From Termitidicoccus mucosus (GTDB lineage Bacteria > Verrucomicrobiota > Verrucomicrobiia > Opitutales > Opitutaceae), in NCBI RefSeq assembly GCF_038725785.1, contig NZ_CP109796.1, forward strand, positions 5,022,001 to 5,086,000: 64,000 nucleotides of DNA, written 5' to 3'. A program made the position numbers and the translations under genes. Below the pieces are notes generated by a model. The model did no database searches. It had not been told where the DNA came from and saw only the letters and a program-made list of their open reading frames with translations. Positions 13,719 to 51,101 of this stretch are shown one piece after another; the stretch's first letter is position 1; each line of letters begins with the position of its first letter.

Positions 13719-13720
13719 GA

Positions 13721-13764: not shown

Positions 13765-13871
13765 TGGAGCAACGGCCTCCGCGCGTGGCATTTTTAACCT
13801 GTCAACTGATTTTCCGAAATAACCTCCCGCCTTGCAGCGGCAGATGGGATATTATTCTGGAACCGGCATGA

Positions 13872-24098: not shown

Positions 24099-24154
24099 GT
24101 GGTTTTTTTGTGCGGGTTGGTGGATTGGGAGGGAGAATGGGTCGATGTATTTGG

Positions 24155-24247
24155 CCATCTTTCTCTTTCCTTTTCATCTTTATTCTTTCTTCCCTGATTT
24201 GCCGTGCGCACGGGGAGAAAGATTAAGAGGAAAGAAGAAAGGGAAGG
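24155..24247. repeat. Pyrimidine/purine long hairpin (family C), copy 2
   Basis: Pyrimidine arm 24155-24194 and purine arm 24213-24247 are complementary over most of their length with several mismatches, around a GC-rich loop containing GCCGTGCGCACGG. Located between the kduI stop and kduD start, in the middle of a probable operon, so it may reduce expression of kduD relative to kduI or mark a processing site. Confidence 0.7.
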
Positions 24248-24255
24248 AGGCGGAG

Positions 24256-25080
24256 TCAGCGCAGGTCCTTGGTGGCCACGGGGTCCATGTCTTCGTATTG
24301 CTGGTTGTCGCCGCCCATGGCCCAGACGAAGCGGTAGGCGGCGGTGCCGACGCCGGTGTGGATGGACCAGGAGGGGGAGAGGGCGACTTCGCGGTCGCGG
24401 ACGGTGAGGTGGCGGGTGCGGTCGGGCTCGCCCATGAGATGGACGACCATCTGGTCCTGCGGAATGTCGAAGTAGAGATAAATTTCGGTGCGGCGGTTGT
24501 GCACGTGCGAGGGCATGGTGTTCCAGACGCTGCCGGTTTCGAGCGTGGTGCAGCCCATGACGAGCTGGCAGCTCTTAATGCCGCCTTCCTTTTGGTGGAT
24601 GTAGCGGCGGATGACGCGGCGGTTGGCGTTGGCGGGGTCGCCGATGGGGGGCGTCTTGATGTCCTCGCCGCGGAGCACCGCCGTGGGATATTTGGCGTGG
24701 GCGGGGGTGCTGATGCAGTAGAACTGGGTGTCGCCGGAGAAGGAGACGTCTTTTTCCCCGAGGCCGATGTAGAGGCAGTCGAGGTGGCCGAGCTCGTATT
24801 TGGCGGAGCCGACGGTGACGGTGCCGGTCTTGGCAGTGAGGTTGAGGATGCCGATTTCGCGGCGTTCGAGGAAGTAGGAGGAACCGATCGGCTTGTAGTT
24901 GCCGAGTTTGATGGGGGAGCCGGCGGGCTGCACGCCGACGACGATCATGCGGTCGAGGTCGGTGTAGTGGGCGACGATCTGGCCGGGCTGAAAGAGGTTT
25001 TGAAGCAGATAGGTCTCGCGGAGTTTTTCCGTGGACATGACATTGGTGCAGTCGGGACTGGCGGAATAATGGACTTTCAT
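24256..25080 (-). CDS. kduI: 5-keto-4-deoxyuronate isomerase
   Basis: 274 residues from the ATG at 25080, close to the usual 278 of KduI. It starts MKVHYSASPDCTNVMSTEKLRE, and contains the metal-binding cupin motif MPSHVHNRRTEIYLYF (H-x-H with Glu six residues on) and a second conserved segment around MGEPDRTRHL. The enzyme converts 5-keto-4-deoxyuronate, formed spontaneously from unsaturated galacturonate, to 2,5-diketo-3-deoxygluconate in the cytoplasm. kduD follows; two DUF4861 genes lie upstream on the same strand, so the four genes probably form one transcription unit for products of pectin lyases and unsaturated uronyl hydrolases. Confidence 0.94.
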   Translation of the reverse strand: MKVHYSASPDCTNVMSTEKLRETYLLQNLFQPGQIVAHYTDLDRMIVVGVQPAGSPIKLGNYKPIGSSYFLERREIGILNLTAKTGTVTVGSAKYELGHLDCLYIGLGEKDVSFSGDTQFYCISTPAHAKYPTAVLRGEDIKTPPIGDPANANRRVIRRYIHQKEGGIKSCQLVMGCTTLETGSVWNTMPSHVHNRRTEIYLYFDIPQDQMVVHLMGEPDRTRHLTVRDREVALSPSWSIHTGVGTAAYRFVWAMGGDNQQYEDMDPVATKDLR

Positions 25081-25214
25081 GGGTGCGTGGTTGGTTGTTT
25101 GTCGGGTTTTATTTGTTGTGGATCGGATGAAAAGGGAAGCGTCGAAAAACTGACACAATGGCGCGGCAGGTTGAGTCTTTTTTGCGAATTGTGCGATTGG
25201 GCGAACTGTTTGCG

Positions 25215-26477
25215 CTATTCGGCGGGTGAAAACGTTACAGCGAGCGGGTGGCCGAGGCGGAGGGCAAAGTCGGCGAGGTAGGCTTCCCACGCGGCCGGCG
25301 CCGGGAAGCGGCCGGTGTCGTCCTTGCTCCAGCAGGCGCCGATGTAGTAGCGCACGGGTTTGCCGGGAGCGGCCTGGACGAGGATGTAGTTGTTGCCTTT
25401 GTCCTCGGCCAGCCCGGCGGTCGCGCCGGCGGGGAGCAGGGCGGCGGTGCCGATGCTGCCCTCGCCGAGGCTGGCGCCGGGGGCGGTGTTCTTTTTCGGC
25501 GGGCGGTTATAGGTGATCCAGTTGGCTATCCAGCCGGTTTTTGCGTCGGAGGCGAAGGTGTGGGTGGCGTTGCGCTGGGGCTTGGAGAGGCCGACGGCGA
25601 CGGTGAGCGCGTCGCGGTCCGCGAAGGTGAAGGTGCTGTCGACCTGGTGCAGGTTGCGTCCGGCGTCGATGGTGAAGCGTTTGGTCTCGGTGACTTTCAC
25701 GCCGGCGGCGTCCCAGGCTTTGTATTCAAGCTCGAACACCGTGCGGATGGGGCCATTGGCGAGGACGCGCCAGGTGGCGTAGTTGTGCGAGGTGTGGATG
25801 AGGGCGCCGTCCCAGATGCCGGTGCCGCCGTCGCCGCGGTCGGTGCCGACGTCATACATGTCGATGCCCTCGCCGCTGTTCACGTGGTAGGCGTCGTGGC
25901 CCTTGAGATACCAGCGGTTGATGACCGGGTAGCGGACGGATTTTATCCAGACGTCGATGCCGCTGCTGATCATGCGCGATTTCCCGGCGGCCGCCGTGTC
26001 GAGCGCCGGACCATACATGCGGTGGGCGATGACGTCGTTTTCAAAGGCGAAATCGTCGAGGCGTTCGGGAACGTAGCGCGCAAAGGTTTTGGGTTCGAAA
26101 GGCGGCACGGGCTTGGCGGTGCGCTCGATGGTGAAAACGGCGGTTTTCTCGCCGGGCGCAAAATCATGCTGCCACACGAGATCGTCGCCGAGCACGGGGC
26201 GCGCCTCGGGGGTAAAATTGGTGACTTGCGCGGGGATGATGCTGCCTTTGGCGTCGCGGACGGCGACGCAGTCGAGCAGCACGCCGGGGATGCGCGCGCG
26301 GACTTCCTTGAAGGGGATGACGATGGTCTCGGCCGGGCGCGCGGTGGCGAGGTCATTGGTCACGGTGACGGTGAACTTGTCCTGCGCGCCGGCATTCGTG
26401 CCGGCGAATCCGAGGATGGCGAGCATGAGGACGGCGGCGGCGGGGAGGCGCGGATGGGGAGTGGCGTGTCTGGTCAT
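25215..26477 (-). CDS. DUF4861 secreted protein, paralog 1
   Basis: 420 residues with a signal peptide (LPAAAVLMLAILGFAGTNAGAQ). A beta-rich N-terminal region (FTVTVTNDLATARPAETIVI) leads into the DUF4861 core: FARYVPERLDDFAFENDV, SGIDVWIKSVRYPVINRWY, GEGIDMYDVGTDRGDGG and HTSHNYATWRVLANGPIRTVFELEY (read in pieces). The clustered His, Asp and Glu of the GEG-D-Y-VG-RG segment are shared by all three DUF4861 proteins in this window and are the best active-site candidates. I know of no established biochemical activity for the domain. Position directly before kduI and fusion to GH105 in the 45.7-49.6 kb gene both point to processing of unsaturated uronides in the periplasm. Confidence 0.82.
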   Translation of the reverse strand: MTRHATPHPRLPAAAVLMLAILGFAGTNAGAQDKFTVTVTNDLATARPAETIVIPFKEVRARIPGVLLDCVAVRDAKGSIIPAQVTNFTPEARPVLGDDLVWQHDFAPGEKTAVFTIERTAKPVPPFEPKTFARYVPERLDDFAFENDVIAHRMYGPALDTAAAGKSRMISSGIDVWIKSVRYPVINRWYLKGHDAYHVNSGEGIDMYDVGTDRGDGGTGIWDGALIHTSHNYATWRVLANGPIRTVFELEYKAWDAAGVKVTETKRFTIDAGRNLHQVDSTFTFADRDALTVAVGLSKPQRNATHTFASDAKTGWIANWITYNRPPKKNTAPGASLGEGSIGTAALLPAGATAGLAEDKGNNYILVQAAPGKPVRYYIGACWSKDDTGRFPAPAAWEAYLADFALRLGHPLAVTFSPAE

Positions 26478-26567
26478 GATGGATTGGTGGCAGGTTGGTC
26501 GATGAGGGAGGGCGGACGTGCGCGCCGCCGGTGTTTTTCAGTGTGGTTGTCGGGAGCGGCGGAAAAC

Positions 26568-27827
26568 TTATTTTCCACTCGCAAATGCGACTCGCACGGG
26601 GTTGCGCAGGCGGGCGGCGATGGAGGCAAGATACTTTTCCCAGTCGGCGCGGGTCTTGAAATCGCCGCTCAAGTCCCAGCCGCCGCCGATGTAGTAGCGC
26701 AGCGGCTTGCCAGTCTTCACCTTCACGAGGATGAGCAGGTCGGCGGCGGTTTCGGCGAAGCCGGCGAATTTCGCGGAGGGATCGAGCACAATGCCGGTGC
26801 CGAGGCTGCCGTCGGCGGGGTCCTTGAACTCCTCCCAGAGGCTGAGCCATGCGCCGGTTTCGTTTTTCGTCGGCACGGCGACGGTGGTCTTGGAGGGGTG
26901 CTTGCTCAGCCCGATGGCGACGGTGATTTCGCCGTCGGGGGATTTGCGCGGCGGTTGAAAGGTGAATGTGCTCTCGACCTTGTCCACATTGAGGCCCGGA
27001 TCGACGGTGAAGCGCTTGGTCTCGGACACCATGAAGCCGTTCGTGATGCCGAAGGCGGGCGCGGCGTCCCACGGCTCGTAACCGAGCTCGAACACGGCGC
27101 GCAGCGGGCCGCCCGCGAGGACTTTCCAGATGCTCCAGTTGCGCGAGGTGTGCAGCGCGGCGCCATCCCACACGCCGGTGCCGCCGAGGCCGCGATAGGT
27201 GCCGACGTCATACATGTCGAGCCCCTCTCCGGTGTCGGTGTGGAGGCCGTCGTGTCCTTTGTGATACCAACCATCGACGACGAAATGATGGACTTTCTTG
27301 CACCAGAAATCGATGCCGCTGCTCGTCATCTGGTCCGGCCCGGCCGACGGCAGTTCGAGCCCGGGGCCGTAGATGCGATGCGCCATGCGGTCGTTTTCCC
27401 ACGCGAAGTCGTCGTAACGCTCGGGCACGTAGCGCGCCATGACCTTCGCCGGCACGGGCGGAGCGGGCACGGGCGACGCCTCGATGGTGAAGGTCGCGCT
27501 CTTCTCGCCGGCGGCGAAATCGTGCTGGAAGACCAGTTCCTGATAGACCGGAGGGCCGCGATGCACGTGGTGAAACGCCGTTGCCTGCGACGGCACGACC
27601 GCGCCGCCCGCGTCGCGCACGATGACCTGGTCGAACAACAACCCGGGCAGGCGGCGGCTGACCTCCGCAAACGGGATTACGATGGTCTCGGCTGGCCGCG
27701 CTTCGGCGAGGTCGTGCGAGACGGTGATGGTGAATTTTTCGGCTCCATAAAGGGCCGGCGCGACTGTCGCGAACACGAGTGCGAATCCGAGGGCAAAAAA
27801 CGGGACCGGGAGTGTGATTCTTTTCAT
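26568..27827 (-). CDS. DUF4861 secreted protein, paralog 2
   Basis: 419 residues from the ATG at 27827, with signal peptide (PVPFFALGFALVFATVAPALYG). Same plan as its neighbour: FTITVSHDLAEARPAETIVIPF, ARYVPERYDDFAWENDRMAHR, SSGIDFWCKKVHHFVVDGWY, GEGLDMYDVGTYRGLGGTG and TSRNWSIWKVLAGGPLRAVF. The N-terminal signature ARPAETIVIPF is identical in both paralogs, showing a tandem duplication, while the rest has diverged enough to suggest different substrates. It is the first gene of the probable DUF4861-DUF4861-kduI-kduD unit. Gap to paralog 1 is 90 bases. Confidence 0.82.
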   Translation of the reverse strand: MKRITLPVPFFALGFALVFATVAPALYGAEKFTITVSHDLAEARPAETIVIPFAEVSRRLPGLLFDQVIVRDAGGAVVPSQATAFHHVHRGPPVYQELVFQHDFAAGEKSATFTIEASPVPAPPVPAKVMARYVPERYDDFAWENDRMAHRIYGPGLELPSAGPDQMTSSGIDFWCKKVHHFVVDGWYHKGHDGLHTDTGEGLDMYDVGTYRGLGGTGVWDGAALHTSRNWSIWKVLAGGPLRAVFELGYEPWDAAPAFGITNGFMVSETKRFTVDPGLNVDKVESTFTFQPPRKSPDGEITVAIGLSKHPSKTTVAVPTKNETGAWLSLWEEFKDPADGSLGTGIVLDPSAKFAGFAETAADLLILVKVKTGKPLRYYIGGGWDLSGDFKTRADWEKYLASIAARLRNPVRVAFASGK

Positions 27828-27969
27828 GGGCGTGGGAGCAAAAGGACTAGGGCAATCTACAGGCAAATACGGAAATGCGGGGAAACCAAGCGAAAAACCG
27901 GCGGCGGCGCAATCGCCCGGAAATCGGAACGTAAAGTCGCGCCCCGGCCGCGGCGTCCGGCGCGTCCCG

Positions 27970-29184
27970 TCACATGCGGAACAGCACGCTCTCGCGGTTG
28001 AACATCCGCACCGCCAGGGCCAGAGCGGCGGCGGCATAAAGGCAGGTCGAGCCGAAGATCAACGCGATCATCCCGGCGGGAAACTGGCCCGCGACCATCT
28101 CCTTGCTCACCAGAGCGACGTTGAGGATCGGCACGAACGCGAGTTTTGCAGTGAGCTCCACGCCCGGCAGCACCGCGCCCACCGCCGGCAGGATCACGAT
28201 GAAGATCAACGGCGACGCATAACTCTGCGCCTCCTTGTGGCTGCGCGCGAACAGCGAGACCGTCAGCAAGCCCGCGGCGAACAGCACCGCCAGCGGCAGC
28301 ACCAGCGCGCACACGCCGAGCACGCCCGGCCAGCTCACCGCCGGCAGCCCGCCCGCCGCGCCCAGCGCCTTGCCCGTGAGCAACGCGCTGCCCGCCTGCG
28401 CGGTCGCCAGCATCGAGCCGAGCGAGCAGGCCACCGTGGCGAGCGACGCCGTGAGCACCATGAGAAACTTCCCCAGCACCAGCTCCGTGCGCCCGACCGG
28501 GCTGCACAGGATCGTCTCCATCGTGCCGCGCTCCTTCTCGCCCGCCGTCAAGTCGATCGCCGGATACATCGCGCCCGTGAAGCACAATAATATCAACAAA
28601 TACGGCACCAGCCCGCCGTAGAGATTGCCGCCCACCTTCGCGGGAGGCGCGACGTTTTCGCGCTTCACCTCAAACGGGCGCAAAAACGTCTCCTCCAGCC
28701 CGCGCGCCGCCAGACGCTCGCGCACCAGCCGGTTTCTATAACCGCTGAAAAAACGCTCCAGTTCGCCCGCCGCGAAATCCTCCGACCTGAACTCGCCCCG
28801 GAACAGGCATATCGTCACCTCCGCCGGCCTCCCCGCCGCCAGCGCCGCGTCGAAATCATCCGGGATCTCCACCGCCGCGCGCAGTGTCTTGGCTGCGATC
28901 CGCGCTTTGTAATCCGGCGCGAACGGCACCAGCCGCAAGCGTTCGTTGCCCTCCAGCGCGGCGCGCACGGCCGGCGAGTCTTTCGCCCCCACGACCATCA
29001 CCGACGGCGCCTCGTCGTGCGCCTTGCTGACCACTTTCACCGACACCACGCCGATGCCGAGCATCAACACCGGCATCACCACGGTCGGCACGACGAACAT
29101 CGAGATCAGCGAGCGCCGGTCGCGCAGCGTGTCCGTCAGTTCCTTGCGAAACACCGTGAAAATATTCCGCCAGCGCAGGCTCAT
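27970..29184 (-). CDS. natB: ABC-2 type transporter permease, NatB-like
   Basis: 404 residues. N-terminal anchor helix after FRKELTDTLRDRRSLISMF (DRRS is a hallmark of the NatB group), a large extracytoplasmic region (about 45-185), then five or six membrane helices with the conserved EKERGTMETILCSPVGRTEL. Together with the ATPase encoded upstream it forms an export complex; the Bacillus homologue extrudes Na+. The substrate here is not shown by sequence. The natA-natB gap of 157 bases is occupied by a family D repeat element. Confidence 0.85.
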   Translation of the reverse strand: MSLRWRNIFTVFRKELTDTLRDRRSLISMFVVPTVVMPVLMLGIGVVSVKVVSKAHDEAPSVMVVGAKDSPAVRAALEGNERLRLVPFAPDYKARIAAKTLRAAVEIPDDFDAALAAGRPAEVTICLFRGEFRSEDFAAGELERFFSGYRNRLVRERLAARGLEETFLRPFEVKRENVAPPAKVGGNLYGGLVPYLLILLCFTGAMYPAIDLTAGEKERGTMETILCSPVGRTELVLGKFLMVLTASLATVACSLGSMLATAQAGSALLTGKALGAAGGLPAVSWPGVLGVCALVLPLAVLFAAGLLTVSLFARSHKEAQSYASPLIFIVILPAVGAVLPGVELTAKLAFVPILNVALVSKEMVAGQFPAGMIALIFGSTCLYAAAALALAVRMFNRESVLFRM

Positions 29185-38805: not shown

Positions 38806-41199
38806 ATGCCAATTTCCCAAGTCGCCCCAACGTCACTTCTGTGCTTCCGCCTGCCGTCCGTGGTTGATTCGAGCGCGCTGCCGCCGGCCAAATGGATCTG
38901 GAGCCAGGGGGGCGCATCTGCCGGCCAGCCGCAGTTTTGCCGGTTCACCACCGCTTTTGAATGGGAGGGCGGCCCGGTTGAGTTTTACGTCACCGCCGAC
39001 CAGCGCTTTGTCTTGTCCATCAATGGCGGGATTGTGGCCCGGGGCCCGGACGCCGGCGCGCCGGAGCGATACTACTACTCGGGATACCGCGTCGATTTGC
39101 CGCCCGGACGGCATGAGTGGAGCGCACTGGTCTGGTGGCTTGGCGACCTCGCCCCGTATGCCCATGTATCGCAGCGCCCGGCCTTCCTGCTGGCGGCGGA
39201 AGGGGCAGCGCACCCGCTGCTGACGACCGGAATCGCAAGCTGGATAGCGAGTCACTGCGCGGAGTTCATTCCAGTTATCGAGCGAAAGCTGCCGGGGGCT
39301 CATTTTATCGGTCCCAGCTATTTGATAGACGGAGCCTTGGCGGGAGAGGGAGAGGCCAGCGCCGCAGTTCCGGTTGCGGATGCCCGGCCTGAGGGCGTGA
39401 ACGGGCGCCTGCCTGTGCAATGGGTTTTGCAGCCGAGCGAACTGCCCGAGCAAATTCACTCCGAGTGGAGCCATTGGAAGGCGCGCGCTGAAGGCGGCGA
39501 GTGGATGGCGGATAATGGAAAGATGCGGAAAGAGTGGATTCTCGGTGGGGAAAGAAGTCTGGCAATGGAACTGGCGGAGGGAAACGAAGTGGTCATCGAG
39601 GCACATCGCGAATGGACCGCGTTGCTTGATGCAGAAACGATAATCACTGCCTATCCCGGCATCGAGACAAGCGGGGGGCGGGGCGCGCGCATCGATTTGT
39701 CATGGGCGGAATCGCTGGGCGAGGCCGCCGAACTCAAGGAGAACAATTTCCTGGTTGAAAAGGGGCATCGCGACGAAATCGCGGGCAAGTTCTTCTATGG
39801 CTTCGGCGACACGTTTGCCCCGGCGGGGAGCGGGGGCGTCGAATTTCTGCAAGTGCCTTGGTGGCGCGCCGGCCGGTATTTATTGGTTCGCGTGCGCACG
39901 GCGGATCATCCCCTGGTTATCCGCCGCCTGGCCTGCGAACAGACCGGTTATCCGGTGCGGTCGCGTTCCCGTTTCGAATGCCCGGATGACACGCTTGGCA
40001 AGGTGCTGAGCCTTTGCGACCGAGGCATCCGGGCAAGCTGCCATGAAATGTATTCGGACTGTCCCGCATTCGAGCAACTGATGTATGCGGGGGATGCCCG
40101 GGTGGAGGCGCTGGTGCATCGTTGCCTGGAGACGGATGACCGGCTGGCGCGGAAAGCAATCCAGGTGTTTAATGATTCGCGCCACAAGGGCGGGGGATGG
40201 ACGTGGTCGAGATATCCCGCCCGGGTCGGACAAGTGCTGCCGGTATTTTCGTTGATATGGGTATTGATGGTGGACGATTTTCTCCACTGGCGCGATGACG
40301 CCGCGTTTATAAAAAGCCAGCTCACGGGCGTGCGCGCCACGTTGGATATTTTCGAGGATTTTCTGGACGGCGACGGCTGGCTGCGCGGGCTGCCGGGCTG
40401 GCACTTTGTCGATTGGTGCCCGCATTGGCAGAACGGTGTGCCTCCCTCGGATGCCTCCGGCCGCCGGGCTCTGGTGAATTTGTTTTATGTTCTGGCATTG
40501 CAGGCGGGCGCCCGCATCGAGGATGCGGTCGGGGCGCCGGCCAGGGCCGGGTATCTGAGAACGCTGGCGGACAAGGCTGGCGCCGCGGTGCGCATGGGAT
40601 GCAGCGCTGATGACGGGTTGTTTCGCGATGCGCCCGGGGTTGACTCATTGAGCGAGCATACCCAGGCGCTGGCCGCCTTGGCATTGCTGAAAAACAGGCA
40701 GGAAAAGCGGGCGCTGTTGGAGACAACCCGCCGCGTTGCGGCGGAGACCCATAAAATCGCGCCGGCTTCTTATTATTTCATGCATTATCTATTCGAGGCC
40801 TGCCACGAAGCGGCCTCGGACTGGCTGCATGACCGGCTTTCTCCCTGGCGCGATTTGCTGGCCAGGGGATTGCGCACGCCGATCGAAGCGGCGGAGCCGT
40901 GCCGGTCCGACTGCCACGGTTGGGCGTCGCACCCCTTGTTTCATGCCTACGCGACGATTGCGGGAATCCGTCCGGGCTCGGCTGGATTCTCCAGTGTGAT
41001 TGTCGAGCCGCTACCCGGCCGGTTGCCAGGCCTCGAAGCGGACTTCCCATGGCGGGCCGCCTCGATTTCGTTGAAGTTGGGCTTCGCCGGGGGAAGCGTG
41101 CGGGGCGAGGTCTCCTTGCCCAACGGTCTGTCCGGCGAATTCAGATGGGCCGGGATGTCTTATCCCATCCGCCCGGGTTTGAATGTCATCAAATATTGA
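38806..41199 (+). CDS. GH78-like alpha-L-rhamnosidase
   Basis: 797 residues, no signal peptide, so probably cytoplasmic. N-terminal beta-sandwich regions with AKWIWSQGG (the KWIW start seen in GH78 proteins) and a sugar-binding-like domain, then the alpha/alpha6 barrel from about 390 with the family hallmark MYSDCPAFEQLMYAGDARVEAL, in which Glu423 sits at the position of the proposed general acid in D-C-P--E---GD. The C-terminal beta domain ends PIRPGLNVIKY. GH78 enzymes release L-rhamnose from rhamnogalacturonan-derived oligosaccharides or glycosides. First gene of a five-gene operon; the LacI-type operator overlaps its promoter. The next gene starts 10 bases later. Confidence 0.82.
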   Translation: MPISQVAPTSLLCFRLPSVVDSSALPPAKWIWSQGGASAGQPQFCRFTTAFEWEGGPVEFYVTADQRFVLSINGGIVARGPDAGAPERYYYSGYRVDLPPGRHEWSALVWWLGDLAPYAHVSQRPAFLLAAEGAAHPLLTTGIASWIASHCAEFIPVIERKLPGAHFIGPSYLIDGALAGEGEASAAVPVADARPEGVNGRLPVQWVLQPSELPEQIHSEWSHWKARAEGGEWMADNGKMRKEWILGGERSLAMELAEGNEVVIEAHREWTALLDAETIITAYPGIETSGGRGARIDLSWAESLGEAAELKENNFLVEKGHRDEIAGKFFYGFGDTFAPAGSGGVEFLQVPWWRAGRYLLVRVRTADHPLVIRRLACEQTGYPVRSRSRFECPDDTLGKVLSLCDRGIRASCHEMYSDCPAFEQLMYAGDARVEALVHRCLETDDRLARKAIQVFNDSRHKGGGWTWSRYPARVGQVLPVFSLIWVLMVDDFLHWRDDAAFIKSQLTGVRATLDIFEDFLDGDGWLRGLPGWHFVDWCPHWQNGVPPSDASGRRALVNLFYVLALQAGARIEDAVGAPARAGYLRTLADKAGAAVRMGCSADDGLFRDAPGVDSLSEHTQALAALALLKNRQEKRALLETTRRVAAETHKIAPASYYFMHYLFEACHEAASDWLHDRLSPWRDLLARGLRTPIEAAEPCRSDCHGWASHPLFHAYATIAGIRPGSAGFSSVIVEPLPGRLPGLEADFPWRAASISLKLGFAGGSVRGEVSLPNGLSGEFRWAGMSYPIRPGLNVIKY

Positions 41200-41209
41200 T
41201 TCAACGGCA

Positions 41210-42121
41210 ATGAAGGCGACCGGATTCATTTTATCATCAGTCATATCTTTATGGTTTGCCGCGTCCTTGCGCGCGGCAGTCGTCACCAATGATATAACGA
41301 TTCCCGGAGGAAGCCCCTCGGCGCGCATGGATGTTTACCAACCCGAGCCGGAGCGCTGGCCGGGGCTCCGTCCGGTGGTGCTGATGATTCATGGCGGCGG
41401 GTGGGCGATCGGAGACAAGGCGGACAAGCGCGAGCAAATCACAGGCAATGCCTTCGCCGAAAAAGGTCTGGTTGTGGTTTCCCTGAATTACGATTTGTTC
41501 CGTTACAGGGATGGTCCGTGGAAGGGAGGGAAGATACATGAAGCCTGGCCGCGGAACCTGCAGGACGTGGCGGCCGCGCTGTGCTGGCTCAAATCAGTCG
41601 AGGCAAGGTCTTATGGGATCGACTCCGGGCGGGTGGCGCTGCTGGGTTATTCCGCCGGGGCGCATCTTGCATTGATGGGCGCGTATGCCCTGGATGGCAA
41701 TGACGCGGAATTGCGCGGCAACCGTCCGGTTGCCGATCTCCCGGCGGTGCGCGCGGTGATCTCTGTTTATGGCACGCACGATCTCCGGCTTTTCGGCGCG
41801 AATATATTCAAGCGCGGGGATGCCGGCGACGAGGAGCTGCTTGCCCGGGCCTCTCCCGTCACGTATCTGAGAAAGGGATTGCCGCCGACACTCGTCATGC
41901 ATGGCGACAAGGATGTCACCATTTCACCGGAAATCGCCCGGGCTTTTGCATCCAGGCTCGGCGAGGCGGGCGTCAAATACGAACTGGTCATGGCACCCGG
42001 ACGCAAACACGGGTTCGCCTTGGGGGCGAAAGAGGAGCGGGAATGCACCGGGTTCGCCCTGAAATTTCTTGATGACAATGGCATTTTGCCACCGGCTCAA
42101 CCTCTGCATGGGGATAAATAA
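41210..42121 (+). CDS. Secreted alpha/beta-hydrolase esterase
   Basis: 303 residues from the ATG at 41210. Signal peptide (ATGFILSSVISLWFAASLRA). Oxyanion motif IHGGGWAIGD, nucleophile Ser in LGYSAGAHLALMGAY, acid Asp in MHGDKDVTI, and His in GRKHGFAL make a complete catalytic triad of the BD-FAE/acetyl esterase type. It probably removes acetyl or feruloyl groups from pectic oligosaccharides in the periplasm. It starts 10 bases after the GH78-like gene and ends 1 base before the symporter start, so translational coupling is likely. Confidence 0.85.
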   Translation: MKATGFILSSVISLWFAASLRAAVVTNDITIPGGSPSARMDVYQPEPERWPGLRPVVLMIHGGGWAIGDKADKREQITGNAFAEKGLVVVSLNYDLFRYRDGPWKGGKIHEAWPRNLQDVAAALCWLKSVEARSYGIDSGRVALLGYSAGAHLALMGAYALDGNDAELRGNRPVADLPAVRAVISVYGTHDLRLFGANIFKRGDAGDEELLARASPVTYLRKGLPPTLVMHGDKDVTISPEIARAFASRLGEAGVKYELVMAPGRKHGFALGAKEERECTGFALKFLDDNGILPPAQPLHGDK

Positions 42122-42122
42122 A

Positions 42123-43802
42123 ATGACCGCATTAAAACTTGATCCAAGCTTCTGGTGGCTGATGGCCGGATACGGCGCGCTGCTGATTGGCGTGAGCCTG
42201 TATTTCACGCGAATGATAAAAAACTCCGGCGATTTCTACGGATCAAGCGGAAGGACGTCATTTTGGTTCAGCGGGCTTTCATTTTTCATGACGGCGTTCT
42301 CGGCGTCGGTTTTTGTCGCCAATGCCTCCATCGCCTATCGTCACGGCTCGTTGAACGCCCTGCTGATCGTGGCGCAGTTGCCCGTGTTTTTCGCCGGATA
42401 TTATGTGTTCAGCGCGCGATGGCGGCGCACCGGCTGCGCCACGGTGGTCGAGTTTATTGAAAAGCGCTTCGGCCCCGGAACGGCGAAATTTTTCATGTGG
42501 GTGGGGCTGCCGGTGCGCATGCTCGAAAGCGCCAACCGGTTCTATGTCACGGCGGTGTTGTTCGAGGTGATGCTGGGCATCAGTTTGTTTGCCGGGGCGA
42601 GCGTCACGGCGGTCGTCACCCTGCTTTCCACGGTGGGCGGAGGGTTTCTGGCTGTGGTCGTCACAGACGCGGTGCAGGCGATTTTGCTCACGCTCATCGT
42701 GGCGGTCGTGGCCGCGCTCTCATGGAACGCGGTGGGCGGCTGGGAGCATTTTTCGGCCAATGTGCCGTCTGATTACTGGTCGCTCGCCACCGACGCCGGC
42801 GGCTTTGGCGTGCCGATGATCACGGTGTGGGCGATTGTCGCGCTGTTCGCGTGGAACGGCAACTGGTCGCTGGTGCAGCGTTTTGTGTCCGTGCCGCGCG
42901 AACGCGACGCGCGCCGGGTGTCGGTGATCAGCGGGGTGTCCTATTATTTGCTGTTTCCGCTGATCGCCGTTCCCGCGATGGCGGCTGTCGTCATGATGCC
43001 CGGCCTGGACACTCCGCAGAAGGCGGAATATGCCTACATCCTGGTCGCCCAGAAAGTATTGCCCTCGGGTTTGATGGCGATGCTGTGCTTCGGCTTGCTC
43101 GGCGCGACCATCACGGCGGTCAACGCCGACCTCAATGTGATGGCGCAGGTCGTCGTCAACGACATGCTGAAAAAGCAACTCGCCTCATCGACCGAGCGAC
43201 GGCGTTTGTTCCTCGGCCGGGCGATCATGGTGGTGGTGAGCGCGGTCTGCCTCGCACTGGCGATGCGCATCCGTGATTTTGGAGGCGCGTTCCAGTTCCT
43301 CATCATGGTGCTCGGCATGACCACGCTGCCGACTTTCATGCCCTTGCTGTTCGGGTTGCTCTGGCCGCATGGGACGGGAAGGTCGGCGATCTGGGCGTTC
43401 GCCGCCGGGATTCTCACTGCGCTGATTCTGAAATTCGGGCTGGGGGCTTCGCTCGCCTCGGTGATTTTCTGCAACGGGACGGCCACGGCGGTCGTGTATT
43501 TTGCCTCCGGCTTCCTGCTGCGCCGCTCCGATGCCGAGGAGGAAACTGCCCCTGTGCTGTTTCAGCGGATGCAAAAGCCCCCGCCGCCGGACAGTGCGGA
43601 CGCCCCCACGGGCAGCGATGCGCAAGGAAGGGCGGTGGCGCGCGTGGCCGCGATCACGCTGATATTCTGCGGCGTGCTGGCGGCCATCGCCGAAATGCTG
43701 ACCGGCGCCGACTCCCCGGGCCGCGGCATAGCCTCGCTCGTCGCCGGAGTGTTATTTGTCATTGGAGGCATTATTTTCCGTATAAACCGAAAAATACCTT
43801 GA
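42123..43802 (+). CDS. Sodium:solute symporter (SSS family)
   Basis: 559 residues, about 14 membrane helices. SSS features: GSSGRTSFWFSGLSFFMTAFSAS after the second helix, RRTGCATVVEFIEKRFG, TVGGGFLAVVVTDAVQAILL (the sodium-site helix region), and WNGNWSLVQRFVSVPRERDA, the conserved loop of this family. Na+-driven uptake; the operon suggests an unsaturated or plain uronate, rhamnose, or a small oligosaccharide as substrate. It starts 1 base after the esterase stop and ends 4 bases before the next gene. An ATG at 42108 is also in frame. Confidence 0.92.
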   Translation: MTALKLDPSFWWLMAGYGALLIGVSLYFTRMIKNSGDFYGSSGRTSFWFSGLSFFMTAFSASVFVANASIAYRHGSLNALLIVAQLPVFFAGYYVFSARWRRTGCATVVEFIEKRFGPGTAKFFMWVGLPVRMLESANRFYVTAVLFEVMLGISLFAGASVTAVVTLLSTVGGGFLAVVVTDAVQAILLTLIVAVVAALSWNAVGGWEHFSANVPSDYWSLATDAGGFGVPMITVWAIVALFAWNGNWSLVQRFVSVPRERDARRVSVISGVSYYLLFPLIAVPAMAAVVMMPGLDTPQKAEYAYILVAQKVLPSGLMAMLCFGLLGATITAVNADLNVMAQVVVNDMLKKQLASSTERRRLFLGRAIMVVVSAVCLALAMRIRDFGGAFQFLIMVLGMTTLPTFMPLLFGLLWPHGTGRSAIWAFAAGILTALILKFGLGASLASVIFCNGTATAVVYFASGFLLRRSDAEEETAPVLFQRMQKPPPPDSADAPTGSDAQGRAVARVAAITLIFCGVLAAIAEMLTGADSPGRGIASLVAGVLFVIGGIIFRINRKIP

Positions 43803-43806
43803 AGCC

Positions 43807-45651
43807 ATGAAGCCCATACCGTCATTTGCAGCCATTCTTGCGCTGATCGTTTATCCGCTTTCGGGCGCGCCTCAAACGGATGGCCATTTGCCCGCCGTGG
43901 GGGTGGATACCGCGGGGACATTTTTCCTGCGCAACAAAGCCTACGCCGGAGAGGGCTGGCGCTTTCCCGCGTGGCGCGACGCCATCGCCGAACTCGGCGC
44001 AGAGTTTTTGATGGACCATTATTTCGAAGTGGCGACCGGCGGGACGCTTCGCGAGAACGAGGCCGCCACGCGCGCCCGCATAAAGGCGCTCGGCGATTAT
44101 CTGGGCAAAAGCGGGCTGGACTATGTTTTTAACCTCGAAACCGCCAACTGGACGCCGCGCAAGGAATACATTCCCGGCCAAAACATGTTCGAGCCGCATC
44201 CCGGCGCGCATTATTATCAGGTGCCGGAGCCGGTGCTGGAGGAAATGGCAAAAATGCCCGGCATGAGGGCCGTGTGTTTTGACGAAATCGAGCACGTGCA
44301 AATCAGTTCCGGCCTGAAGAGCCGGCCCAGCGAATACCCGGCGTTGGCGGACACGCGGCGCATGACGCTGCCGGAGGCCAACGCCGCGCTGGTGGCGCGC
44401 TTGATACAAATCAGGGAATACTATAAAAAACACGGTGTCACGCCGGTGGCCGAAAACGTCTGGCCGGTGATGCAGCATCTGTTCGCGCGCGCGGGCTGGA
44501 CGGTCTCGCCGAAGATCATGAAGGAAAGCTGGACGCCGGTGCCGGTGGCGATGGCGCTCGGCGCGGGGATCGAATATGAAAACGCCGGCGCCGACGTGTG
44601 GATGAACCCCGACCTGTGGTTTTGCGGCCACTATCCCGGCCACAGCGTGGACGAGACGCGCAGCGCGCTCGTTTTTTCGCACTGGCTGGGAGTTTCGCGC
44701 ATCTATCTCGAAAACATGGATTATGTGAACGCGCGCGGCGGCGCCCATCAGCCGGACGCGGCGAAAAACTTTGATTATACAAAGATCGTCCAGGGCAGGC
44801 ATCATCCCGATGCCGCCGGCTCGCCGGCCTCGCTGGTGCAGTTCGCCAACGACCGCGAGTTCTCGCTCACGGCCTATGGGCGCGTGTTCCGCGACTACGC
44901 GCGCGACTACAAGCCGTCAAACCCCGTGCCCTACACTTGGCGCGACGCCCGCTGCCGCGTGGCCATCGTGCGCTTCGAGGATTCGTGCTGGGGCCAGCGC
45001 GACAGCACGTTTGGCGACACGCTGCTCGGTTCGGAAATCGAAAAGTCCACGCCGGAGACCGAGGCGTGGTTCGGCATCTGGCACCGCCTCAGCCACGGCG
45101 TGATTCCGAAAAAGGGCCTGTCGTTTCATATAAAAGCCGCCAAATACAACGAGGCCCCGCGTTTTTTTGTCCCCGCGCCGCCCACCCTGGTGTTTGACCA
45201 TCGCATCGGTGACGAGCATCCCGACTTTGATTTCAGGGGGGCCAAAATGATTTTCCTGACGGGCATCGGCTTGAGCAAGGCAACGGTCGGGCTCGTGCAA
45301 CGTCGCGTGAAAGAGGGCGCGGTTGCGGTCACCCTGCATCATTTGGCGCCTGATGAGCTAAAAAGGCAGTTCGCGGCATCGGGGCAGGAGGAGCTGGAGG
45401 TTGCCGACGGGGCCGGACGCTGGATTGTGTGCCGGGATTTTCTGGGAGCGAAAGTGCGGGCGGCGCTGGCGCCGTTGCTTGGCCCGTCCGACGAATTGCA
45501 ATATCAATTTGGAGAGCACCGGCTGATTATTAAAAATATAGACAATGACCGGATTGAGGTCTGGCTGGATGGCCAGCGCCGCCATACCCCGCCCGCCATG
45601 CCGTCCAAGCGCGCAAAATGGGACGGCCAGAATCTTGTCCTCAAAGAATGA
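43807..45651 (+). CDS. Secreted protein of unknown class, possible glycoside hydrolase
   Basis: 614 residues with a signal peptide (IPSFAAILALIVYPLSGA). The chain looks like a TIM barrel followed by a Rossmann/beta tail: WRFPAWRDAIAELGAEFLMDHYF, GLDYVFNLETANW, AVCFDEIEHVQ, VTPVAENVWPVM, GAGIEYENAGADVW and HWLGVSRIYLENMDYV. FDEIEH and the YLEN segment place acidic residues at barrel strand ends, as in retaining glycosidases. No family was recognised with confidence. It is the fourth gene of the operon, flanked by the symporter and the giant GH105 fusion, which supports a role in the same sugar pathway. Confidence 0.6.
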   Translation: MKPIPSFAAILALIVYPLSGAPQTDGHLPAVGVDTAGTFFLRNKAYAGEGWRFPAWRDAIAELGAEFLMDHYFEVATGGTLRENEAATRARIKALGDYLGKSGLDYVFNLETANWTPRKEYIPGQNMFEPHPGAHYYQVPEPVLEEMAKMPGMRAVCFDEIEHVQISSGLKSRPSEYPALADTRRMTLPEANAALVARLIQIREYYKKHGVTPVAENVWPVMQHLFARAGWTVSPKIMKESWTPVPVAMALGAGIEYENAGADVWMNPDLWFCGHYPGHSVDETRSALVFSHWLGVSRIYLENMDYVNARGGAHQPDAAKNFDYTKIVQGRHHPDAAGSPASLVQFANDREFSLTAYGRVFRDYARDYKPSNPVPYTWRDARCRVAIVRFEDSCWGQRDSTFGDTLLGSEIEKSTPETEAWFGIWHRLSHGVIPKKGLSFHIKAAKYNEAPRFFVPAPPTLVFDHRIGDEHPDFDFRGAKMIFLTGIGLSKATVGLVQRRVKEGAVAVTLHHLAPDELKRQFAASGQEELEVADGAGRWIVCRDFLGAKVRAALAPLLGPSDELQYQFGEHRLIIKNIDNDRIEVWLDGQRRHTPPAMPSKRAKWDGQNLVLKE

Positions 45652-45680
45652 GAAAACCGGGCAAACAAAATCTACAGGCC

Positions 45681-48600
45681 ATGAAACAAAACAAAACATT
45701 CCCCCTGGCGGCCCTGCTGGCCGCATTTCTGCTGGTCGTCGGTTTCTCCGCCGGCACGGTTTTGGCTGGGGCGCCCGCGGAGCGCGTCTTGCGCAATCAA
45801 TGGAGCGATGCCACTCTTAAAGAAAATCCGACGGCTCCTCTTCTGGCTCAGTTTCTCGAACGGGCGCGGACTCTGGACGCGCCGTCTCCGTCCGGCATGG
45901 ATGAGAAGGATTATCTTCGTCTCATCGCCGGGAATGTTGATTTTTTCACGAAGCTCCAGGATGAGAACGGGGCGATCATCGATCCCTATCGCAAGCAGGA
46001 GTTTCAATACTCAACGCCTTGTTATGCCTTTGCGGCCGCGATGTTGGTCGAGCACGCCGGACGCGCCGATTTGCTCGCGCCCGCATTGCGCGCGATGGAC
46101 TGGGCGGTTTTGTCGCTGGCCCGCAACAAGGCGGCCAATAATCATCAGGACTTTTATCCCTTTTTTCTCGCCCATGCCCTCCCGATTCTGGCCCGGCATG
46201 CGACCGCCGAACAGGCCGCCCGCTGGAAAGAGCAGCTCGCATCCATCGATCCGTGGACATTGTATCGCGGCCAGCCGGGATTGAGTAACTGGAACGTGAA
46301 GGCACTCTCCGGAGAGGCCATGCTCAAGCTGGCGGGCGTTCGTGATGACACCTCTTATATTGACCACAGCCTGGCTGCGCAAGGCCGTCATTTCCAGTCG
46401 CCATGGGGTTTGTATATAGATTGGAATCCGTCGAAAAAAATCGAGGGTGTCACCTGTTACGATCTATTTCCTCGCACTTTTCTCGCGGTGGCGCTGGAGG
46501 CCGGCTGGCGCGGGGTGTGCGCCGACCAGGCGACAGCCATGATCGACCGCGGCGCGATCACCAGTCTCTTTCTCGAATCGCCGGCGGGGGAAATGCCCAG
46601 TGGCGGGCGCAGCGCCCATCACCAGTGGAACGAGGCGCTGGAAGTGGCGACCTTCGAGCTTTATGCGGCCAAGGCCGAGCGCGGAGGGGACAGGTTTCTT
46701 GCCGGGGTTTATAAACGCGCCGCGCATCTGGCCTTCGCCTCCATGAGGCGCTGGCAGCGCCCCAGCGGAGAGCTTTGGATTATAAAAAACCGCTTCGAAC
46801 CTGAAACACAGCACGCCTTTGAGGCGTATTCCGGACACTCGCAATACAATCTGATGCCGATGGCACTGCTGGGGATCGCCTGGCAGCAAGCGCAAAAAAC
46901 AGCCGGCATCCCCGAACAAATCACCCCCGCCGAACTGGGCGGTTTCATCGTCAATTTGCGTCCCGAGTTTCCTCAAATTATTGCCAACTCCGGAGGCACG
47001 TATTTGCAAATCAACACGGCGCCAGACCCTCATTACGACGTGCTCGGGCTCAACCGCGTCCACTACGTGAATTTCAATCCGCAGCTCGGACCGAGCGACA
47101 GCGTGAATCGCAAAAGCGACCGGCCCCGGTATCCCGCCGGCCCGCGCAAGGCCATTGCCATCGGCCTTTCGTGGAAAGCCGACGCCGGGGATAAATGGGA
47201 CGCGCTCGCTAACTATCATCGCGATCACGTCAAGAAGGTCGAGGTCGAGGAGCAGGCCGCCACGCCCGGTGAGGTGCGTTTCAAAATCATATATGAAGGC
47301 GACTTCGGCGGGGTCAAGCGGGTGGTGGAAAGTTATAAAATCACCCCCGATACTATTGAAATCAGCGGCGCGGTTGACGGCTACAACGGTCCGCTGCGTT
47401 ATGTGTGGCCCGTGCTGGCCGATGATGGCGCGCGACAGCCTGCCATCCGCCTCGAAAAGCAAGCCGTCTCGGTCTCGCTCGATGGTGACACGCAAGTATT
47501 CGCGGCCCCCGGCGGGTCGGTGCGTGTCGGCGAGACGCGATACCCCTTCCACAATGGCTGGGCGCGCGAAGCGTCCGCCGATTTCGCGCCGGGACAGACA
47601 CCGCGTCTCGTGGTGCGTCCCGAACGCTCCTCCCGCACCGCCACGGCGGCAGGAGGCGCGATTTCCACCGCAGTCAAGCCCGCCGCTCCCCCGCCTCTCG
47701 CGCGGACTTTCGCGCGTTATGTGCCGGAGCGCAAAGGTGATTTCGCGTGGGAGAACGACATGGTGGCGTTTCGCGCCTATGGCCCTCCTTTGAAAAATGG
47801 CGCCGAGGACAGCGGCATCGACTGCTGGTTCAAACGTGTCAATTATCCTGTCATCGACAAATGGTATGGCGAGGCCAGACGGGGCAAAACCTACCATAAG
47901 GACCATGGCGAAGGCTATGATCCCTATCACGTCGGTTCGTCGCGCGGCTGCGGCGGACTCGCCCTCTGGCACGAAGGACGCATGGTGCTTTCCGATGTAT
48001 ATGATCGTTGGGAGATGGTTTCGAGCGAGCCGGACAAGACCGTGTTCAAACTTTATTATAGTTACGACCTTGACGGGCGAAAGATCGACGAGGCCAAAAC
48101 CATCACAATTCAAGCCGGCAGCCAGCTTTTCCGTGTGGACGCGGATTTCAGCGAGGCGGGAAAACCTTTGCGAGGCCAGGAAATTGCCATCGGCGTGACC
48201 ACGCATGACGGCAAGGCGAGCGCCACGCTTGATCCCGCCGCGGGCTGGATGGGTTGCTGGGAGACGATTGACGGCGCGAGCGTCGGCACCGGCGTTGTCA
48301 TTGCACCGTCGCGGATCATTCGCATGTTTGAAATCAGCGAGGCTAGGCGCGATTCCGGCCACGCCATTGCATTGGCTGAAACCGATGACTCCGGGCGGGT
48401 TTCATATCACGCGGGCTTTGCATGGACGCGCGCCGGGCGCATCCCCGATGCCGCCGCATGGAATCGCTATCTGGCCGGTTATTCCGCCAGTGACACCGCC
48501 ACCGCGCCCGGCGGAAAGACTGCCGCCGTTGCCGGATTGGGATCACAGAGCATCCGGCAACTTCTCGAAAAAGTCACCGCGTTCCAGATGCGCGACTACG

Positions 48601-49634
48601 ATGGGAAAATACGCGCCAATTGGAAAAGCGGCACGTTTTTCATGGGCATCACCGCACTTTATGAGATGACAAAGGATCCCCGCTATCTGAACCAGGCAAT
48701 CGCCTGGGCCGAGTCCGCCAAATGGAAAGTCTCCAGCCATAATCTGCACGCTGACGGCATTTGCAGCGCGCAAACCTTCCTCGAACTCTATTCCCTTGAC
48801 CGGCGGCCGGAGCGCATTGCCGATATCAGGACCAAGCTGGAGGATTATTTTGGCCGCGCGGAAATACTCCGCGAAGAGCTCGTGAATCCACGCTGGAAAG
48901 ATGCCCGCCGCGCTTTCACCGGGCGTAATCTCTGGTGGTGGTGCGATGCCCTTTACATGGCGCCCCCCATTCTCGCGCGGATGTCCGAGATCAGCGGTGA
49001 ACCGCGCTACCGGGAGCTTATGCACGTTTTATATTGGGATACGGTCGAGTTTCTCCGCGACAAGGAGGAGGGATTGTTTTTCCGCGATGAATCCCAATTT
49101 CCCGCGCGGAGAAAAACGCCGTCCGGTGGCAAGCTCTTTTGGGCGCGGGGCAACGGCTGGGTGCTGGCCGGGCTTGTCCGCATCCTGGAGTATATTCCGG
49201 AAAACGATCCGGCGCGTCCGCGTTATATAAAATTATTCCAGGGGCTGGCCGCGCGCGTGGCGGCCTGCCAGCAACCCGCCGGACACTGGTGTCCCGCGCT
49301 GACGGAACCGGCATGGTTTCCCGTGCCCGAGACGAGCAGCACGGCCTTGTTTTGCTATGCATTCGCCGCCGGCGTGAACCGGGGCTGGCTGGATCGGGCG
49401 GTCTTCCAACCCGCTGCCGAAAAAGCATGGGAGAGCCTTGTGTCGCATGTCGCCGACGACGGACACCTCGGCTACGCGCAACTCGTGGCGATGGCTCCCG
49501 GGCCGGTGAATGCGGAGGATTTCGCGGACTACGCCCACGGCGCCTTTCTTCTTGCCGGATGCGAAATCCATCGCTTGCGGGCCGAAGAGAAAGCGCCTGC
49601 CACAGGCCGGGCGCGTCCCTATGGGCAAAAGTAA
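45681..49634 (+). CDS. Giant secreted enzyme: lyase-like toroid + DUF4861 + GH105 unsaturated uronyl hydrolase
   Basis: 1317 residues from the ATG at 45681, with signal peptide (FPLAALLAAFLLVVGFSAGTVLA). Residues about 60-430: helical toroid-like domain (YSTPCYAFAAAML, YIDWNPSKKIEGVTCYDLFPR, HHQWNEALEVATFELY, SGHSQYNLMPMALLG); about 430-640: beta-sandwich; both recall lyase or DUF2264-like architectures. About 670-935: DUF4861 core with FARYVPERKGDFAWEND, SGIDCWFKRVNYPVIDKWY and GEGYDPYHVGSSRGCGG. About 950-1305: GH105, with NLWWWCDALYMAPP where Asp1089 is the expected catalytic acid, and WARGNGWVLAGL. Single chain joins three functions usually encoded apart. Last gene of its operon. Confidence 0.82.
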   Translation: MKQNKTFPLAALLAAFLLVVGFSAGTVLAGAPAERVLRNQWSDATLKENPTAPLLAQFLERARTLDAPSPSGMDEKDYLRLIAGNVDFFTKLQDENGAIIDPYRKQEFQYSTPCYAFAAAMLVEHAGRADLLAPALRAMDWAVLSLARNKAANNHQDFYPFFLAHALPILARHATAEQAARWKEQLASIDPWTLYRGQPGLSNWNVKALSGEAMLKLAGVRDDTSYIDHSLAAQGRHFQSPWGLYIDWNPSKKIEGVTCYDLFPRTFLAVALEAGWRGVCADQATAMIDRGAITSLFLESPAGEMPSGGRSAHHQWNEALEVATFELYAAKAERGGDRFLAGVYKRAAHLAFASMRRWQRPSGELWIIKNRFEPETQHAFEAYSGHSQYNLMPMALLGIAWQQAQKTAGIPEQITPAELGGFIVNLRPEFPQIIANSGGTYLQINTAPDPHYDVLGLNRVHYVNFNPQLGPSDSVNRKSDRPRYPAGPRKAIAIGLSWKADAGDKWDALANYHRDHVKKVEVEEQAATPGEVRFKIIYEGDFGGVKRVVESYKITPDTIEISGAVDGYNGPLRYVWPVLADDGARQPAIRLEKQAVSVSLDGDTQVFAAPGGSVRVGETRYPFHNGWAREASADFAPGQTPRLVVRPERSSRTATAAGGAISTAVKPAAPPPLARTFARYVPERKGDFAWENDMVAFRAYGPPLKNGAEDSGIDCWFKRVNYPVIDKWYGEARRGKTYHKDHGEGYDPYHVGSSRGCGGLALWHEGRMVLSDVYDRWEMVSSEPDKTVFKLYYSYDLDGRKIDEAKTITIQAGSQLFRVDADFSEAGKPLRGQEIAIGVTTHDGKASATLDPAAGWMGCWETIDGASVGTGVVIAPSRIIRMFEISEARRDSGHAIALAETDDSGRVSYHAGFAWTRAGRIPDAAAWNRYLAGYSASDTATAPGGKTAAVAGLGSQSIRQLLEKVTAFQMRDYDGKIRANWKSGTFFMGITALYEMTKDPRYLNQAIAWAESAKWKVSSHNLHADGICSAQTFLELYSLDRRPERIADIRTKLEDYFGRAEILREELVNPRWKDARRAFTGRNLWWWCDALYMAPPILARMSEISGEPRYRELMHVLYWDTVEFLRDKEEGLFFRDESQFPARRKTPSGGKLFWARGNGWVLAGLVRILEYIPENDPARPRYIKLFQGLAARVAACQQPAGHWCPALTEPAWFPVPETSSTALFCYAFAAGVNRGWLDRAVFQPAAEKAWESLVSHVADDGHLGYAQLVAMAPGPVNAEDFADYAHGAFLLAGCEIHRLRAEEKAPATGRARPYGQK

Positions 49635-50925: not shown

Positions 50926-51045
50926 TAAAAATCGATTCCTCAGAATTACCGACACCCCGCGCCCTTCTCCAAAAAAAATTTTCGTTCCCGAATTTCATCC
51001 GGCATCCAGCCATGCCTCCCGGCGGCAGCAGGATGTTTTTAGAAA

Positions 51046-51059
51046 TTTACACGTGTAAC
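51046..51059. promoter_or_regulatory. Predicted LacI-type operator before the second carbohydrate operon
   Basis: TTACACGTGTAA at 51047-51058 is a perfect palindrome, the symmetric form of the two other sites, 43 bases before the ATG at 51102. Centre-to-centre distance to the site at 50912 is 134 bases, which would allow looping between two bound repressor dimers. Confidence 0.8.
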
Positions 51060-51101
51060 CAATTTCGCTCAATTTATCCCTCTGCAGCCATCCTCCCCGC
51101 C

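Follow-up and report, generated by a model that had tools for sequence, protein, structure and literature searches.

Positions 5,022,001 to 5,086,000 of contig NZ_CP109796.1 of Termitidicoccus mucosus were analyzed as one stretch of 64,000 nucleotides (the window; coordinates below count from its first letter). On its forward strand, an open reading frame (ORF) at 45618-49634 encodes a protein that joins three parts, namely an (α/α) toroid with a β-sandwich, denoted as the N-part, a DUF4861 core, and a GH105 domain. With modest confidence, we favor the view that this protein is an exported multifunctional enzyme that strips non-reducing-end uronic acid from rhamnose-containing uronate glycans in three steps. 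In the first, the N-part would abstract H5 of a terminal uronate and eliminate the leaving group at C4, most probably water, to leave a 4,5-unsaturated end. In the second, which is established for the family and presumed for this member, GH105 would use D1089 as the acid to hydrate this unsaturated end and would release 5-keto-4-deoxyuronate, which would then be imported and passed to KduI. In the third, suggested by genomic linkage, DUF4861 would have an exported task of its own tied to that intermediate; before uptake, it would most likely open the ring of the unsaturated or 4-deoxy-5-keto uronate, whether released or bound, or handle its anomers.

The frame is open from 45618 (1338 aa), and the ATG at 45681 gives a protein of 1317 aa with the following parts.

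45681..45770, + strand: signal-peptide-like N-terminus, residues 1-30 (hydrophobic stretch, simple hydropathy scoring only)
45771..46937, + strand: (α/α) toroid of the N-part, residues 31-419 (AlphaFold2 model, Foldseek and VIA-align, profile comparison)
46938..47630, + strand: β-sandwich of the N-part, residues 420-650 (model and conservation)
47700..48485, + strand: DUF4861 core, residues 674-935 (Pfam PF16153, E 9.6e-57, profile positions 112-371 of 380)
48582..49577, + strand: GH105 domain (Pfam GH88), residues 968-1299 (PF07470, E 4.1e-75)
48945-48947, + strand: the GH105 Asp, D1089 (motif position)

The Pfam matches and the AlphaFold2 model bear out the three-part chain described in the initial annotation, including the GH105 domain with its Asp and the DUF4861 core, although the first ~111 profile positions of the latter are missing. 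The same order of parts occurs in one 1324-aa ORF of a metagenome-assembled genome, Opitutaceae bacterium isolate Ct408_bin80 (L005), which is 88% identical to the window protein across the N-part, so the fusion is no assembly accident.

The N-part and the GH154 dehydratases

Sequence searches place the N-part in no established family. For residues 1-660, neither a Pfam family nor a PDB sequence was matched at E<=10, apart from one sub-fragment that gave FRB_dom at E 0.25, and the NCBIfam and Pfam matches of the protein were confined to the other two domains. When a profile of 17 N-part sequences was searched against the PDB, four matches to ribosomal L23 and an SGNH hydrolase were obtained at E 0.42-1.7, none of them significant, and two single relatives gave unrelated Pfam matches only (0.048 and 0.096). 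These relatives came from a pattern scan of genome contigs, in which 17 of 26 stretches encode them. The Opitutaceae member stands at 88% identity and the others at 35-47%, the latter from Sumerlaeota, Phycisphaerae, Pontiellaceae, Actinomadura, Armatimonadota/Abditibacteria and other groups. In a phylum sample of 387 genomes, 42 had an N-part match at E<=1e-20. Seven relatives (L006, L007, L008 and L010-L013) carry ~200 extra residues before the N-part, which in L008 match the galactose-binding AGA-YXIM_GBD model. Invariant motifs in the 17-sequence alignment include NW, YD-F-R, GGRSAHHQWNE and YS, and N203, Y260, D261, R310, S311, E318, Y383 and Y389 are identical in all 45 sequences of the larger alignment.

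An AlphaFold2 model built with 17 related sequences (mean predicted local distance difference test score 90.7, predicted template modeling score (pTM) 0.93) presents the N-part as a toroid at model residues 1-389 followed by a β-sandwich at 390-619. A lyase-type fold is therefore modeled in residues 60-640, the region for which the initial annotation had expected one. In Foldseek, the top-ranked full-length matches were the alginate lyase 3a0o (E 3.7e-11, 717 alignment columns over both domains), the GAGases 8khv/8khw, BtPL33HA, chondroitin AC lyases, PL17 and heparinase II, whereas the GH154 entries 8oi4 and 9o4u matched the toroid only and ranked below the lyases. VIA-align gave mostly toroid-only rows, with cellobiose epimerases highest among those listed (Z up to 24.7), followed by 8oi4 (Z 21.0, root-mean-square deviation (rmsd) 4.3, 332 aligned), 9o4u (Z 20.9, rmsd 4.3, 334 aligned), unsaturated glucuronyl hydrolases (Z 20-21) and GH105 entries (Z 19-20). 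Because the toroid is common to epimerases, GH88/105 and GH154, the name lyase taken from the fold was set aside; the modeled fold does not by itself decide the type of activity.

Profile comparison was more discriminating. With hhalign, the 45-sequence N-part profile matched short DUF2264 proteins (16 sequences) at a probability of 95.1 (E 3.5e-8), while the controls gave 1.5 (GH105), 1.8 (heparinase II/III) and 22.6 (AGE epimerases, 18 sequences). The 17-sequence profile gave 85 against short DUF2264, and the three controls spanned 0.1-22.6 across both N-part profiles. In null tests of the match to short DUF2264, the reversed profile gave 1.1 and none of 100 column shuffles exceeded 4.9. The 28 remote N-part members alone still gave 91.9 against short DUF2264, and all 29 DUF2264 sequences combined gave 90.8 over 324 columns across the toroid. 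DUF2264 corresponds to GH154, as a DUF2264 protein encoded in this genome has matches to 8oi4 (7e-179) and 9o4u (2e-121), the latter entitled 'Beta-D-glucuronic acid dehydratase'. At the sequence level, no family but DUF2264/GH154 stands clearly above the controls in its likeness to the N-part.

The available text of PMC12269599 reports β-D-glucuronate dehydratase activity for the GH154 members BcGDH and BT_3677, both of which, when re-tested, dehydrate a saturated terminal uronate with no chain cutting. BcGDH is described there as priming terminal glucuronic acid (GlcA) for BcGH88, and replacement of any one of ten active-site residues with alanine made activity on chondrosine undetectable. 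The move of GH154 from hydrolases to dehydratases was proposed in 2025 on the strength of these two enzymes. Taking residue names from that source and matching the numbering by counting on the alignment, we found four active-site residues of BcGDH in register with the N-part: N177 with N203, W178 with W204, R285 with R310, and Y354 with Y383. W204 is kept in 39 of 45 sequences and the other three in all 45. The N-part resembles BcGDH and BT_3677 in its toroid, a profile similarity above controls and a genomic pairing with GH88 or GH105, and four BcGDH residues are in register with it. It differs in that it lies below Pfam detection and does not clearly retain several residues of the active site, and the two known proteins are separate enzymes. 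Based on these likenesses, we infer that the N-part is a distant dehydratase-like uronate eliminase outside DUF2264 as its model defines it.

Several observations weigh against this assignment. Long two-domain DUF2264 proteins alone reached only 16.7, 16.8 and 3.0 against the N-part; the Pfam DUF2264 model gave no N-part match at E<=10 and matched none of the 17 aligned members at E<=1. Six of the ten BcGDH active-site residues (E74, R78, N176, F181, Y229 and Y289) are not clearly kept, and Y289 aligns with H314, which is present in 23 of 45 sequences. Over both domains, Foldseek favors lyases, and the sole listed VIA-align row that covers both is an epimerase, human dermatan sulfate epimerase (6hzn). 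Furthermore, 23 of 29 other N-part loci have no GH105 ORF within ~1.5 kb flanks (the remaining six are fused or adjacent), and of 14 genomes searched, four (L010, L012, L019 and L020) gave no GH88/105 match, among them both Actinomadura (L010 and L012).

The N-part could instead be a true poly- or oligosaccharide lyase, which would cut a uronate polymer or oligomer by β-elimination so that the group that leaves is a sugar; GH105 would then remove the new unsaturated end. We regard this as a serious alternative of clearly lower probability. It would explain the full-length fold matches and the N-part genes in genomes without any GH88/105 match, and it suits the Phycisphaerales locus L007, which carries PL8, heparinase-like and BNR_4 genes. 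In addition, R459 (44 of 45 sequences) and H461 (29 of 45) sit in the sandwich, and in BcPL35, according to the available text of PMC12269599, the catalytic machinery is located in the groove between these two domains, toroid and sandwich. However, BT_3677 likewise has a second domain near its active site (PMC12269599), so the sandwich does not discriminate between a lyase and a dehydratase. No Pfam lyase model matches the N-part at E<=10, and the heparinase II/III profile reached 0.4-1.8 versus 85-95 for short DUF2264, in a comparison with heparinase II/III as its one lyase profile. The lyases 3a0o, 8khv/8khw and BtPL33HA share the overall two-domain fold of the N-part, but with 9-12% identity and no lyase profile match where tested.

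Dermatan sulfate epimerase is a uronate epimerase that abstracts H5, and 6hzn aligns across both domains (Z 19.4, rmsd 5.0, 500 aligned). A uronate C5-epimerase, with the same abstraction of H5 and no elimination, would accord with this alignment; the profile similarity points to dehydratases and the fused GH105 needs an unsaturated end, so that we consider an epimerase very improbable. Of the initial claim that the N-part is a lyase, the lyase-type fold stood, whereas the only clear sequence likeness is to the DUF2264/GH154 dehydratases, which emerged from the profile comparison and not from the Pfam search for lyase families and DUF2264. Since the GH154 members that it resembles dehydrate a terminal uronate, making the double bond and then cleaving fits better than the order first proposed, in which the protein would cut, process and release.

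GH105 and its pairing with proposed eliminase parts

The GH105 domain scores 253.4 bits against a curated PF07470 cut-off of 26.6. Its nearest solved relatives are 5noa (Z 41.6, rmsd 2.6 over 326) and the ulvan enzyme 4ce7 (Z 38.7, rmsd 3.1 over 331). D1089 lies within WWWCDALYMAPP (WWWCD), and the corresponding Asp is kept in both. We take D1089 to be the catalytic acid, in line with the entry title YteR/D143N. The unsaturated uronyl hydrolases 5noa, 4ce7 and YteR share the family, the fold (Z 36.7-41.6) and the Asp motif with the window domain, but differ in that their chains consist of the GH105 domain alone.

Both DUF2264 and the N-part recur in fusion with GH105, in gene calls made at these loci, as at the DUF4861 loci, with our own profiles and mechanical ORFs. 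True fusions of DUF2264 and GH105 in a single ORF were found as six proteins in two genomes: five DUF2264-GH105 ORFs of 788-835 aa in G144, of the host's family (two in L209 and one each in L210, L211 and L212), and one of 1021 aa in the reverse order in G094 (L072). The five proteins of G144, a 2.4-Mb genome, together with further DUF2264 genes, constitute an unusual expansion of dehydratase-hydrolase fusions. The N-part and GH105 share one ORF with DUF4861 between them in the window and L005, without DUF4861 in L008 (Sumerlaeota), and with GH105 first in L214 and L215, the latter cut by the contig start. They also occur together in L219, where the frame is interrupted, and a GH105 ORF adjoins or overlaps the N-part ORF in L016, L213, L216, L217 and L218. 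Within the 17 loci of the pattern scan, GH105 is fused in two and lies in the flanks of three more (L007, L009 and L016). An obligate coupling of the N-part to GH105 was rejected, given the genomes and loci without GH105 noted above. Of four ORFs scanned near the Actinomadura gene of L010, one encodes a DNA ligase and the other three gave no match.

Dehydratases that work with GH88 or GH105 as separate proteins are already known (PMC12269599; PMC8511951, in the available text of each). The ulvan oligosaccharide dehydratase P29_PDnc (PL37) and P33_GH105 follow the same proposed logic, terminal-uronate dehydration and then GH105 (PMC8511951), but they are two separate proteins, and P29_PDnc is likened to the N-part here by logic and not by sequence; it is reported as unrelated in sequence to GH154 (PMC12269599). 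The available text of PMC6168547 reports a broad ulvan lyase from the same polysaccharide utilization locus of F. agariphila. We take this lyase and P29_PDnc to be the same protein, and a choice between lyase and dehydratase would therefore have been disputed before.

DUF4861 and its linkage to uronate genes

The DUF4861 domain scores 193.1 bits against a PF16153 cut-off of 22.3, and a match that begins late in the profile is common, as 20 of 46 DUF4861 matches in the order likewise begin at positions 104-122. NCBIfam NF058564, the BT3233 family polysaccharide utilization protein, likewise has a DUF4861 domain; the window protein falls below its equivalog cut-off (261.5 bits versus 320), and the name assigns no activity. 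Of 223 genomes in the host's order, DUF4861 was matched in 43, of which 42 exceed the cut-off, and the matches fall at 46 loci. At least 40 of these 43 also have GH88/105, compared with at least 41 of the 180 others (Fisher 5e-18, with kinship ignored).

The link of DUF4861 to unsaturated-uronate chemistry, which had been proposed from the fusion in the window, extends to other genomes. In 39 of 41 loci examined, DUF4861 is fused to GH88/105, lies within 1.5 kb of it, or lies within 1.3 kb of kduI: it is fused in 20 (either order), within 1.5 kb of GH88/105 in 9 more, and within 1.3 kb of kduI in 26. The two loci with neither partner, L093 and L094, are on 3.4- and 4.4-kb contigs. Of the five loci outside the 41, G145 and G197 have GH88/105 94 nt away and G184 1.9 kb away, while for G180 and a fragment in G188 there was no GH88/105 on the contig among the matches listed. 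Two GH105 coordinates of the host's own genome are approximate in this analysis. The fusions in L056, L057, L062, L065, L066, L071, L091, the own-genome L004/L075 and the window were checked with Pfam, and the others with our own profiles. Separate DUF4861 genes stand beside kduI in L059, L064, L074, L087 and the window, and in L055 with a short-chain dehydrogenase between them.

Several loci hold further combinations. In L061 (3502-6093) and L063 (8773-11607), GH88/105 near DUF4861 is fused to GH28, a pectin/rhamnogalacturonan hydrolase; L071 (116-3430) encodes DUF4861-GH105-BNR_4 in one 1105-aa ORF, and a separate BNR_4-GH105 fusion lies in L007 at 11886-14273. A C-terminal DUF4861 piece is found upstream of a PL8-type ORF in Phycisphaerales (L124:8581-8985, at the same place as L007:1-396). 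That this piece shares an ORF with the PL8 gene was rejected, as it occupies a separate 135-codon frame in a locus with 200 N.

A signal-like hydrophobic start (score >=2) was present in 13 of 17 DUF4861-bearing ORFs inspected and in none of four KduI ORFs; the starts of the remaining four DUF4861 ORFs look over-extended or cut. Judged from these starts, the site of action of DUF4861 is probably outside the cytoplasm. Three arrangements retain the triad of eliminase, DUF4861 and GH105: in the window and L005, the parts are all fused; the own genome (L075) has DUF2264, ~28 nt and GH105-DUF4861, flanked by a BNR gene and GH78/GH106 rhamnosidases; and L072 has DUF4861-KduI-DctP-DctQ-DctM-[GH105-DUF2264], closely spaced on one strand. 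Because all three parts are kept, DUF4861 would do something that neither partner does, and probably has its own exported job.

The model of DUF4861 is all-β, with ~17 strands and one short helix, and its packing against GH105 is not confident (pTM 0.57). After GH105 entries, the fold search of the joint model returned cellobiose/maltose phosphorylases and a 1,2-α-L-fucosidase, which have a sandwich-plus-toroid build. This hints at a super-sandwich for DUF4861, in searches that were both dominated by GH105. PL4 lyases use a super-sandwich for catalysis, and DUF4861 might accordingly be a second double-bond maker, a lyase or dehydratase for another uronate or linkage, so that two alternative eliminases feed one GH105. 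The DUF4861-GH105 fusions do mirror those of DUF2264, and the predicted order of an all-β domain and then a toroid ranks beside the phosphorylases and fucosidase. We nevertheless find a second eliminase unlikely, since profile comparison showed no likeness of DUF4861 to PF06045, a family of the PL4 type (0.2), all three triad arrangements retain DUF4861 alongside a DUF2264-type part, and DUF4861 genes are often next to kduI with no GH105 close by.

The same structural neighbors, together with fusion in both orders, would also suit a non-catalytic helper, in which the DUF4861 sandwich would bind sugar or lend structure and so give the subsites of GH105 their shape. Such a helper seems improbable in view of the frequent stand-alone DUF4861 genes with signal-like starts, the unconfident packing in the model, and the charged residues E691, R698, D714, K718, H739 and D747, which are invariant in 32 aligned sequences.

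Ring-opening or anomer handling of the released uronate is done by KdgF. We tentatively place DUF4861 as a new exported enzyme class between GH105 and KduI, in which case the window chain would carry out dehydration, hydrolysis and ring-opening on one sugar; we rate this as possible but doubtful. It counts against the favored role of DUF4861 that a DUF4861 profile gave at most 0.2 against aldose epimerases, PF06045, heparinase, AGE, long DUF2264 and GH105 and 4.2 against the N-part, and that a PDB profile search with DUF4861 found nothing at E<=10. The role proposed for the domain is drawn from linkage.

Genomic setting and implications

The window also holds the following genes around the fusion.

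23328..24158, - strand: short-chain dehydrogenase beside kduI (PF13561, E 7.6e-56), presumably kduD-like by position
24256..25290, - strand: KduI/IolB-family gene beside both DUF4861 genes, true start probably later (PF04962, E 2.8e-24)
25215..26477, - strand: DUF4861 gene, full-length profile match, signal-like start (Pfam E 6.6e-78)
26568..28037, - strand: second DUF4861 gene, ORF start probably too early (Pfam E 4e-71)
38806..41199, + strand: α-L-rhamnosidase-like (GH78-like) enzyme, upstream of the fusion gene (PF17389, E 6.3e-20)
41183..42121, + strand: esterase, BD-FAE/α/β-hydrolase type (PF20434, E 2.4e-35)
42069..43802, + strand: sodium:solute symporter, ORF start probably too early (PF00474, E 5.4e-27)
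43807..45651, + strand: 614-aa protein directly upstream of the fusion gene (no Pfam match at E<=10)

Pfam thus supports the earlier reading of two separate DUF4861 genes (25215-28037) beside kduI (24256-25290). Past the fusion gene lie a LacI-type regulator at 49745-50812, a large NHL/CBM96 protein at 51012-54863 and a TonB-receptor plug protein at 55677-58463. Rhamnosidases recur at these loci, GH78-like in the window, GH78 and GH106 in L075, and GH78 in L007. The substrate is likely a rhamnose/uronate glycan, for example rhamnogalacturonan or an arabinogalactan capped with rhamnose-GlcA.

As far as our searches of the PMC literature go, neither the three-part fusion nor the linkage of DUF4861 has been reported. 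DUF4861 and PF16153 were not mentioned in the literature searched, and neither BT_3233/BT3233 nor DUF2264 was found by name; a BACCELL tag appears in the available text of PMC8377490. The tight linkage to GH105 or kduI gives the DUF4861 family a narrow, testable role in uronate breakdown, and ring-opening by DUF4861, if true, would be a periplasmic counterpart of KdgF. Taken together, the recurrent GH105 fusions of GH154 and of its distant relative, the N-part, provide independent genomic support for the dehydratase reassignment, and these fusions offer ready-made single-protein assays.

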